From the NCBI GenBank assembly GCA_943333505.2, contig CALQTN020000001.1:1-64000 (forward strand): a stretch of 64,000 nt of DNA. The letters are read 5' to 3'. A program made the position numbers and the translations under genes. This document shows, one piece after another, positions 60,692 through 64,000 of the stretch (the stretch's first letter is position 1; each line of letters begins with the position of its first letter). Source of the stretch: Asaia bogorensis. Lineage in GTDB: Bacteria > Pseudomonadota > Alphaproteobacteria > Acetobacterales > Acetobacteraceae. Below the pieces are notes generated by a model. It was not told the origin of the DNA, made no database searches, and saw nothing but the letters and a program-made list of their open reading frames with translations.

Positions 60692-61057
60692 ATGCGTGCA
60701 CAATTTCTTCTTCGGCGCGGCTTCCTGGTTCTGGGTTTGCTTGGCACCAGCTTTCCTGTCGCCGCCCATGCCATTCTGATGGAGGGCTATCCGGCGCCGA
60801 ACGGCACCGTGCCGGCCGGAACCGTCGCGATCCGGCTGCGCTTTAACAGCCGGATCGATGTTGGCCGGTCCCGGTTAACCCTGGTGGTGCCCGGACGCGG
60901 TGAGCAGCGCTTGCAGATCCAGCCCGGCCCGACCCCGGACCTGATGGAAGCGGAGACCATATTGGCGGCGGGTGGCATGGCGTTGCACTGGCAGGTGCTG
61001 GCGATCGACGGCCATATTACCCGCGGCATTATCCCCTTCACCGCGATTGCGCGCTGA
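60692..61057 (+). CDS. copC: Periplasmic copper-binding protein CopC
   Basis: This 121-residue protein runs from the ATG at 60692 (MRAQFLLRRGFLVLGLLGTS). Signal peptidase cleavage after PVAA would leave His26 at the mature N-terminus, the Cu(II) histidine-brace ligand of CopC. The partner acidic and His ligands are in AIDGHITRG near the C-terminus. It carries copper in the periplasm for the CopD membrane protein encoded one base downstream. Confidence 0.87.
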   Translation: MRAQFLLRRGFLVLGLLGTSFPVAAHAILMEGYPAPNGTVPAGTVAIRLRFNSRIDVGRSRLTLVVPGRGEQRLQIQPGPTPDLMEAETILAAGGMALHWQVLAIDGHITRGIIPFTAIAR

Positions 61058-61058
61058 T

Positions 61059-62714
61059 ATGCAACTCCTTGTCGATCTGTTCGGTTATCTCAGCATCATC
61101 CTGCACGGTGCCACCATCGTGGGTCAGGCAACTTCGGTCGGGAGTGTGCTTTTCCTGGTGTTTCTCGCCAGACCGCGTGCCTGGATGATCGGGACGACCG
61201 GCGATGCTGTCATCACCGATACGGTGCGCATCGCCCGCTGGGCGCTGCTCGGGCTCATTGTCGGGGAACTCGCCACCACGCTGATGCAACTCGCGATGCT
61301 GGTGAGCACCACCGGACTTGAACCGGCCGATGCCCTCGGCGCCGATTTCGCCGTCGCCGGGCTGATCAAGATCATTGTGGCGCTTATTTTACTCGGGTTG
61401 CTGTCGCTGCAAGACAGCACGGGATCTTCGGTGCTGCTGGTGTTGGCGAGCGCCTGCGTATTGGCGGCCGGCACGCTGACAACCCATGCCATCGCCCGGG
61501 TGGAGAGCCGCGAAATTCTGCTTGTCGCGACGTTTGTGCATCAGTTCGGCGCCGCTATCTGGATCGGTGGCATTCCGGCCTTCGTCGCTGCCTTGCGCCG
61601 TGGCAGCGACAGCGCCGCCTGGCGGATGGTGGGCGAGCGCTTTTCGAGCATGTGCATGATCGGCGTTGTCGCGATCCTGCTGTCGGCGAGCGTGCTGGCG
61701 GTGTGGTATATCGGGTCGGTTCCGGCCAGCTACGGCACCGCCTACGGCGTTATGGCCGGTGCGAAAGGCGCGATGTTCCTGGCGCTGCTGCTGCTGGGCT
61801 TCGGCAATTTCCGCCTGATCCGCAGCCTGCGGCCGCATCGCGACACCAGCATCACCCGGCTGCGCCGCTTCGCCGAGGTGGAAATCGGCATCGGCTTCAC
61901 CCTGTTCTTCGCCGCCGCATCGCTGACCTCGGTGCCGCCCGGGGTTGATCTGACCCATGACCGCGTCACCTTTCACGAAATCGTCGAGCGCAACACCCCG
62001 GTCTGGCCGCGGCTAGAAAGCCCCGATCACGATGCGCTGGCGTTGCCGGCGTTGCAGGCCAGGCTCGATGCGGAAGCCGCTGCGAGCGCGCAGAAGCCGC
62101 AGGCCGCCTTTGTGCCTGGGGGAGGATCGCTGCCCGACCGCAACGCCGCCGATATTGCGTGGTCGGAATACAATCATCATTGGGCCGGGCTGTTCGTGAT
62201 CGCCATCGCGCTGCTGGCGCTGCTCAATCAGGCCGGGCTGCGGGCGGCGCGACATTGGCCGGTGGTGTTCTTCGGGCTGGCAGGGTTCCTGTTTTTTCGC
62301 TCCGACCCTGAGACCTGGCCGATGGGCGATATTTCATTCCTCGACTCGCTGCGTGATGTCGAGGTGCTGCAGCATCGGTTTTTCGTGGTGCTGCTGGTGT
62401 GCTTTGCGATCTTCGAATGGCGGGTGCGGCTTGGCCTTGCGCGCGCACGCTGGATGACCTTGGTGTTTCCACTGCTGACCGCCATCGGTGGGGCGGCGTT
62501 GCTGACCCACAGCCACGCGATTGCCAACGTCAAGGAACAATTGCTGATCGAACTAACCCATACGCCATTGGCGCTGGCCGGCGCCGCCGCCGGCTGGGCG
62601 CGCTGGCTTGAATTGCGGCTGGACCCGGGCCGAGGCCAGCGCATTGCCGGCTGGGTGTGGCCGCTGTGCTTCCTGCTGGTCGGGCTGTTCCTGCTGGGGT
62701 ATCGCGAGGCCTGA
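61059..62714 (+). CDS. copD: CopD-family copper transport membrane protein
   Basis: This 551-residue multi-spanning membrane protein starts at the ATG at 61059, one base after copC. The CopD domain covers the first ~290 residues (FGYLSIILHGATIVGQATSV, ATFVHQFGAAIWIGGIPAFV, YGVMAGAKGAMFLALLLLGF), with conserved histidines near the periplasmic faces. A further ~230 residues with extra membrane helices (DIAWSEYNHHWAGLFVIAIA, DISFLDSLRDVEVLQHRFFV) make it longer than classical CopD. It probably imports copper delivered by CopC. Its TGA abuts the stop of the convergent asparaginase gene. Confidence 0.87.
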   Translation: MQLLVDLFGYLSIILHGATIVGQATSVGSVLFLVFLARPRAWMIGTTGDAVITDTVRIARWALLGLIVGELATTLMQLAMLVSTTGLEPADALGADFAVAGLIKIIVALILLGLLSLQDSTGSSVLLVLASACVLAAGTLTTHAIARVESREILLVATFVHQFGAAIWIGGIPAFVAALRRGSDSAAWRMVGERFSSMCMIGVVAILLSASVLAVWYIGSVPASYGTAYGVMAGAKGAMFLALLLLGFGNFRLIRSLRPHRDTSITRLRRFAEVEIGIGFTLFFAAASLTSVPPGVDLTHDRVTFHEIVERNTPVWPRLESPDHDALALPALQARLDAEAAASAQKPQAAFVPGGGSLPDRNAADIAWSEYNHHWAGLFVIAIALLALLNQAGLRAARHWPVVFFGLAGFLFFRSDPETWPMGDISFLDSLRDVEVLQHRFFVVLLVCFAIFEWRVRLGLARARWMTLVFPLLTAIGGAALLTHSHAIANVKEQLLIELTHTPLALAGAAAGWARWLELRLDPGRGQRIAGWVWPLCFLLVGLFLLGYREA

Positions 62715-63716
62715 TCAGTAGGTCAGGAAGATCCGCTCGATTTCCGCCGGATCGCTGGTCACCGTGAGCGCCAGCGCCAGCAGCAGCCGCGCCTTTTGCG
62801 GGTTGAGATTATCGCTGATCAGGAACCCAGCTTCGCGCAGGCGCTTGCCCTTATGGGTGCGCCCGCTGCCGGCGCGGGTGCACTGCATCACGATGACGCC
62901 CTGGGCGATGGCTTCCTCCAGGGCGACGAAATCGCCCGGCCCGGCAAAGCCTGGCGCGAAGCCGGCCGAGACGATCGCCCGCGCCCCGGCGGCGACAAAG
63001 GCGCGCACCGCGGTGCCATCGGCGCCGGCATAGGCATAGGCGATATCGACCCGCGGCAATGCGGCGAGAGCACGAATATCGAATTCGGTATCCGGGGCGG
63101 CGCGGCGGATCGGACGGCGGTAATAGGCAATCGCATCGCCGTCGGCGTGGCCGAGCACGCCGAAATCCGGCGTACGGAAGGTGTGCATCCGCAAGGTCGA
63201 GGTCTTGGTAACCTCCCGCGCCGCGTGGATTTCGTCGTTGAGCATCACCAGCACGCCCAAGCCGCGCGACTGCGGGGCGGCGGCGACGCGGACGGCGTTT
63301 AACAGGTTGATGTTGGCGTCGGTCGAAATCGCGCTCGCCGGCCGTTGTGCGCCGACCACCACAATCGGGATGGTGATTTTGGCGGTGAGGTTCAGCATAT
63401 AGGCGGTTTCTTCGAGGCTCGCAGTGCCATGGCCGATGACAATGCCAGCGAGGTCCGGGTGATCGGCGACCAGTCGGTCACAAAGCCGGACAAGTCCTTG
63501 CCATTCCGGGAAGTAGATGTTCGGGCTGGGCACGGCGGCGAAAGGCACCGCGATGATCTCGGCGATTTCGGCCAGTTCGGGAACACGGGCGATGAGGTCG
63601 GCGGCCTGGAGGATGACGCCGTTGGCACCGTAATCCTGCAACTCCCGGCTGGTGGCACCGATGGAGGCGATGGTGCCGCCGGTGCCGATGAAGGCGATTT
63701 TGGGAAGGGTGGGAAT
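62715..63716 (-). CDS. L-asparaginase/glutaminase, probable ATT start
   Basis: From 63716 the product is 333 residues, starting IPTLPKIAFIGTGGTIASIG. This contains the catalytic Thr15 of GTGGTIA, which no asparaginase can lack. The second catalytic segment is VIGHGTASLEETAYML. No ATG, GTG, TTG or CTG exists in frame upstream of the catalytic Thr before a TAA at 63758-63760. An ATT at 63714-63716 has a GGAG 8 bases upstream, so I take it as the initiator. The first TTG (63641) would remove the active site. It should hydrolyse asparagine to aspartate and ammonia; no signal peptide is seen. Confidence 0.85.
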   Translation of the reverse strand: MPTLPKIAFIGTGGTIASIGATSRELQDYGANGVILQAADLIARVPELAEIAEIIAVPFAAVPSPNIYFPEWQGLVRLCDRLVADHPDLAGIVIGHGTASLEETAYMLNLTAKITIPIVVVGAQRPASAISTDANINLLNAVRVAAAPQSRGLGVLVMLNDEIHAAREVTKTSTLRMHTFRTPDFGVLGHADGDAIAYYRRPIRRAAPDTEFDIRALAALPRVDIAYAYAGADGTAVRAFVAAGARAIVSAGFAPGFAGPGDFVALEEAIAQGVIVMQCTRAGSGRTHKGKRLREAGFLISDNLNPQKARLLLALALTVTSDPAEIERIFLTY

Positions 63717-63734
63717 GGGATAAACTCCGGGATT

Positions 63735-63788
63735 GAAGGACGATTACGTGTTGTTTTTGTTTACAAAACCAACACGCGATCGTCCTTC
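63735..63788. repeat. 54-bp interrupted palindrome
   Basis: Arms GAAGGACGAT/ATCGTCCTTC (outer), CGTGTTG/CAACACG (middle) and TTTTGT/ACAAAA (inner) face each other with small mismatches over 63735-63788. It starts at the last base of the cobT stop codon and ends 18 bases before the asparaginase start. It could be a terminator for cobT, a large operator, or a cruciform. Confidence 0.75.
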
Positions 63789-64000
63789 TAGATCACAATC
63801 GCCGACTTCTCCGCACTCGCCCGCGCCCAGGCAGCTGCCGCGTTCTCATCAAACAATTCGGTGAGCTTGGCCATCATCGTGCCGCCCAATTCCTCGGCGT
63901 CCACGATGGTCACGGCGCGGCGGTAGTAGCGCGTCACGTCATGCCCGATGCCGATCGCCACCAGTTCGACCTGATCGCGGTTTTCGATTTCCTTGATCAC
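63788..64000 (-). CDS. cobT: Cobaltochelatase subunit CobT, C-terminal fragment (runs off right edge)
   Basis: The 70 residues visible include [20 protein letters not shown] and [20 protein letters not shown], the conserved C-terminal end of the von Willebrand A-type domain of CobT. With CobN and CobS it inserts cobalt into hydrogenobyrinic acid diamide in aerobic B12 synthesis. The 5' part lies beyond the window. The stop is TAG at 63788-63790, followed by a large palindrome. Confidence 0.9.

Follow-up and report, generated by a model that had tools for sequence, protein, structure and literature searches.

Reading the minus strand codon by codon, we confirmed that an apparently intact and selected asparaginase-family gene carries ATT in its native start position. 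The gene lies at 62715..63716 on the minus strand of the window, by which we mean the whole 64,000-nucleotide stretch analyzed, and runs for 333 codons from the ATT (63714..63716, minus strand) to a TGA stop. Of the explanations that we weighed, weak translation from AUU seems the most likely, and we give it about an even chance of being right.

The gene encodes an intact member of the asparaginase family

The ORF matches PF00710 (1e-51) and PF17763 (6e-29), both above the Pfam cut-offs, and is the sole PF00710 match of its own genome (G000). It contains both the GTGGT and the HGT motifs, and there is no internal stop or frameshift in its 333 codons. Residues 5-333 align with PDB 6syh over the length of that structure. 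The predicted protein thus resembles type II L-asparaginases (PF00710/PF17763; PDB 6syh, 1wsa) in having both Pfam domains, but it differs from them in two respects. Its score against TIGR00520, the type II asparaginase model, is 289.3 bits, below the cut-off of 314.3, and the residue following HGT is Ala, whereas it is Asp in the solved enzyme 6syh. Ala is also found after HGT in 84 of 91 related loci, with Ser in 4, Gly in 2 and no matched residue in 1. Because of the low type II score and this Ala, we use 'asparaginase' as a family-level name only; judging from the residue, substrate or kinetics may be different from those of the type II enzymes.

No canonical start codon precedes the catalytic segment

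The sequence-only reading, which was silent on the strand, held that ATG, GTG, TTG and CTG are all missing between an upstream TAA and the GTGGT segment, and that GGAG stands 8 bases before an ATT. Both statements proved correct once the minus strand was read. Upstream, the frame ends at an in-frame TAA (63744..63746, minus strand). From there the codons are TCG TCC TTC AAT CCC GGA GTT TAT CCC ATT CCC ACC, and those after ATT CCC ACC are CTT CCC AAA ATC GCC TTC ATC GGC ACC GGC GGC ACC, with none of the four codons in frame between TAA (63746-63744) and the GTGGT segment. GGAG, a Shine-Dalgarno-like core (63725..63728, minus strand), is separated from the ATT by an 8-nt spacer; weak pairing between the two is possible (-2.9 kcal/mol).

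Other places to begin translation fared poorly. We read the remaining two minus-strand frames by eye from an upstream palindrome (described below) to GTGGT and saw no ATG, GTG or TTG, so that models invoking a frameshift or an upstream start have no canonical codon as an anchor in any of the three minus-strand frames. The first canonical start codon downstream in frame is a TTG (63639..63641, minus strand) past the GTGGT segment, and a protein begun there would lack the first 25 Pfam domain positions, the catalytic segment included. Two in-frame ATC codons downstream of the ATT (63698-63696 and 63689-63687) were rejected as starts, as they lie at least 26 nt from the GGAG.

How often would such an arrangement arise by chance? 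ATG, GTG and TTG are absent from 52% of random 16-codon stretches of the window; the lack of a canonical codon is unremarkable by itself and notable in front of a conserved, selected gene. An ATT with a Shine-Dalgarno-like core (here GGAG, GAGG or AGGA) at 5-10 nt occurs in 0.8% of such stretches, and GGAG-N8-AT is found at 12 of the 128,000 window positions (both strands).

Among the loci compared, the ATT is private to the window, and it occupies the codon of a relative's ATG

To compare start positions, we took the top 80 of the 367 related loci that a scan of genome contigs gave, and ran a second search over 60 genomes, of which 25 had any match (own genome included in both counts). Besides the window, the comparison took in 99 relative loci (L002-L081, L083-L101), and it came to 92 rows once 8 duplicates were dropped; two loci of the own genome (L001, L082) and five distant or partial matches (L102-L106) stood outside it. 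We looked for canonical codons no more than 15 codons from the start of the domain, which IAFIGTGG marks in the window: of the 92 distinct loci, 68 have ATG, 20 GTG and 3 TTG, a canonical codon within this stretch not being proof of the true start. One of the TTG rows, L089, whose alignment begins only at residue 13 of the window protein, is uninformative on the start. The sole locus of the 92 with no ATG, GTG or TTG in this interval is the window itself.

At this position a relative of the same genus, G004 (87-88% identical), carries GGAGAGATACGCATG and the window GGAGTTTATCCCATT; the two codons differ by one base, and the spacing to the GGAG is identical. Because G004 has GGAG-N8-ATG at precisely this codon, the ATT looks like an inherited start codon altered in its third base. 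The earlier claim that ATT sits where homologues start is exact for G004. It does not extend to the closest relatives, G001 and G003, whose ATG is 3 codons further upstream, and across the relatives the nearest canonical codon most often stands one codon further downstream. When whole leaders were aligned, shuffled sequences equalled the score in 0 of 500 trials for G004, 4 of 500 for G001 and 293 of 500 for G003; for the upstream part alone, they did so in 70, 31 and 494 of 500. Leader homology thus rests mainly on the Shine-Dalgarno and start geometry together with the first codons, and sequence further upstream is not clearly shared. The ATT might also have come to lie there by chance at a fresh deletion junction, since a spacer, a toxin-antitoxin pair and a terminator tail found in G003 are absent from the window. 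The poorly matched upstream leader would fit such an event, but G004 shows the same GGAG-N8-AT arrangement at the corresponding codon, and we therefore treat a junction as a second-rank explanation.

A further rival is a sequence artefact or minority variant, in which a wrong or polymorphic base hides a canonical start present in the organism. The locus comes from a single draft assembly of 151 contigs, the ATT state is private among the 92 loci, and a single base separates it from the G004 codon. Switches from AUG to AUU are also very rare, with 1 reported among 61,358 reconstructed AUG starts (PMC5622118). Moreover, searches of the 60 genomes, of viral contigs and of plasmids turned up no second sequence for the locus, the viral contigs giving no exact match and the plasmids one relative at 72.9%. 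On the other side, the ORF is free of other defects, having no internal stop or frameshift, and the linkage of cobT, the asparaginase gene and a copD-like gene recurs in G003, so that a gross chimera at this place in the contig is unlikely. We regard an artefact as a possibility to be taken seriously, yet one clearly less probable than weak initiation at AUU.

The upstream region has been remodelled

The 3' end of cobT, a cobaltochelatase subunit gene (TIGR01651, 1.3e-247), lies upstream at 63788..64000 on the minus strand and extends past the window to G000:C1:65668. On the other side is a convergent ORF with a CopD domain (60972..62714, plus strand; PF05425, 8e-17). Its stop and that of the asparaginase gene abut on opposite strands at 62714/62715 with zero bases between them, an arrangement also seen in G001, G003 and G004.

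A palindrome (63735..63788) separates the cobT stop from the ribosome-binding site. Its 26-nt arms are 88% complementary, with 2 nt between them; it ends 6 nt before the GGAG and has a predicted fold of -31.1 kcal/mol (z -9.2). On the minus strand no T-run follows it, and a scan for terminator-like sites found none at the palindrome. Its core resembles a terminator-like hairpin, GTTCTTTTTGTNNACAAAAAGAAC, with 53 sites in the own genome. The same hairpin has 41-250 sites in each of four other genomes of the genus; L122, L123, L125, L127 and L128 are example loci from the own genome and the genus. The full-length palindrome occurs once in the genome, with ten other matches of only 14-28 bases, and we rejected an inserted repeat family on these grounds. 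Five RNA-family matches all fell under the gathering score and were taken as chance.

In G003 and G004, cobT is followed by GTTCTTTTTGTGAACAAAAAGAAC and then CAAAAAAACTTTTT. No sequence of this type was seen in the stretch of G002 examined after cobT, and G001 gave no cobT match. The left half of the palindrome resembles the shorter terminator-like hairpin that follows cobT in G003 and G004, while its right half does not. The terminator tail of these two genomes is missing from the window, where the strong hairpin stands in its place. G003 has the same gene order as the window, and there ~0.94 kb separates cobT from the asparaginase ATG; relative to G003, the window is without this ~0.94 kb, including a toxin-antitoxin pair. 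The pair, a FitA-like (RHH) antitoxin and a PIN-domain toxin, neighbours the asparaginase gene in G003, and similarity points to such a pair in G001 as well (L118:2099-2769; L154:2852-3543). In G004, the asparaginase gene is downstream of pobA. A scan for sigma-70-like promoters, a type of scan that does not cover every promoter type, found none, and we infer that transcription of the gene, if any, would come by read-through from cobT.

Purifying selection argues against an old pseudogene

Pairwise dN/dS for the window ORF was taken against three relatives of the same genus and is 0.080 for G001, 0.099 for G003 and 0.092 for G004. The more distant G008 and G002 give 0.178 and 0.274, with synonymous sites almost saturated in these comparisons. 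G001, G003 and G004 agree at 142 codons; there the window shows 19 private synonymous changes and 3 nonsynonymous ones. We set these against neutrality over part of the branch, using parsimony counts, an assumed constrained rate of 0.08 and three transition biases. Had the gene been neutral for 20% of its branch, 3 or fewer nonsynonymous changes would be expected with P = 0.003-0.013; for 10% of the branch, P = 0.03-0.09, which does not firmly exclude so short a neutral period. By these substitution counts, the gene has been under constraint during most of the time since its lineage separated. Such constraint reflects the past and does not separate present use of the ATT from a very recent loss.

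The suggestion that the gene has lost its start and is silent must accordingly be divided. As an old event it is contradicted by the strong constraint on the lineage: dN/dS of 0.08-0.10, together with the branch count and the lack of any internal stop, rules out a long-standing pseudogene. As a recent event it can be entertained, the start having just been lost, no useful protein being made and the pseudogene being too young to have decayed. A gene with any match in just 25 of 60 genomes is dispensable in the family, and its upstream context has been remodelled, with the ~0.94 kb and toxin-antitoxin pair of G003 absent, the terminator tail lost and a strong hairpin present. No promoter-like site was found, and the counts leave some room for neutrality over 10% of the branch. 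In opposition stand the low P for a 20% share and the 333 codons without stop or frameshift. We think recent silencing improbable, slightly more so than an artefact.

Near-cognate starts have precedents in other bacteria and in infC of this genus

Use of ATT as a start is plausible by analogy with known cases. E. coli infC starts with ATT and Streptomyces infC with ATC (PMC5472188), and pcnB starts with AUU (PMC9764084). In S. aureus, cvfC1 starts with AUU, and ccpN, citZ and infC with AUA (PMC13009471); in that study, reporters for cvfC1, ccpN and citZ reached ~10% of the output of AUG when the medium was poor. PMC11445065 has nothing on ATT beyond a reference. Like the window gene, pcnB of E. 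coli and cvfC1, ccpN and citZ of S. aureus have a near-cognate start behind a Shine-Dalgarno-like core, and citZ, too, is a metabolic gene whose non-canonical start is confined to a lineage (PMC13009471). Their starts were mapped or tested by experiment, whereas that of the window is inferred and known from one genome only.

Near-cognate initiation is likely to operate in these bacteria, to judge from 20 infC loci that we took. AGGAG-ACCACC-ATA precedes infC in 5 of 5 genomes of the genus, with an in-frame ATG five codons later, and in the own genome (G000:C47:18815-18830, locus L144) ATA stands behind AGGAG; infC of this genome and of the genus probably starts with ATA. Five loci (L133, L134, L141, L150 and L151) have ATA or ATC behind GGAG and no ATG, GTG or TTG before the conserved motif, and L136 has ATA behind GGAG with only a CTG besides. 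L137 and L138 have CTG at the start position and ATG further on, L152 has ATG, and L147 gave no start assignment. Taken together, infC loci of several other alphaproteobacteria (within L133-L151) have ATA or ATC and no canonical codon. The asparaginase ATT would share with infC a near-cognate start and the same machinery, but the non-canonical start of infC is common to relatives and explained by IF3 autoregulation (PMC5472188), while the ATT is confined to the window among the loci compared and lacks a loop of this kind.

Weak initiation at AUU best accounts for the observations

We propose that the third base of an inherited start changed to give ATT, leaving the GGAG and its 8-nt spacer intact. 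Ribosomes would still initiate at AUU, at a lower rate, on mRNA arising from cobT read-through across a hairpin that has no T-run. IF3 would disfavour this AUU as it does other AUU starts, and the cell would make a small amount of an otherwise normal asparaginase-family enzyme. In favour of weak AUU initiation are the missing canonical start, the 91 other loci that are unlike the window, the geometry shared with G004 and the low dN/dS; against it are the rarity of ATG to AUU switches, the upstream leader without a clear match and the failure to find a sigma-70-like promoter.

Weak AUU initiation implies no dedicated regulation of the start. The earlier hint at infC- or pcnB-like regulation went unsupported, with only 1 of 92 loci lacking a canonical codon: conservation of the non-canonical start among relatives, the mark of IF3-autoregulated or regulatory weak starts, is absent. 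It is conceivable that AUU was selected to lower the enzyme or to couple it to the level of IF3. Streptomyces sigR, with a GTC start, is repressed by IF3 (PMC5472188), and the AUA start of ccpN in S. aureus rises to 30% of AUG output in rich medium (PMC13009471). However, the ATT is private to one genome of the 92 loci, we found no regulatory element linked to the start, and the S. aureus AUU site, in cvfC1, was without medium effect in the data reported there (PMC13009471). An adaptive weak start thus strikes us as highly improbable.

Implications

Were the ATT to stem from a sequence error or a fresh loss, the case would be routine. There is a slim chance that the locus is a natural weak-start allele caught early, a metabolic enzyme gene of a wild alphaproteobacterium that has shifted from AUG to AUU while still under selection, with its output set by IF3 fidelity and read-through of the remodelled cobT hairpin. 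If the ATT is real and translated, a short list would gain one more AUU start, lineage-specific and in a metabolic gene, and gene callers that accept only ATG, GTG and TTG would be seen to shorten or overlook a gene that is intact and selected.
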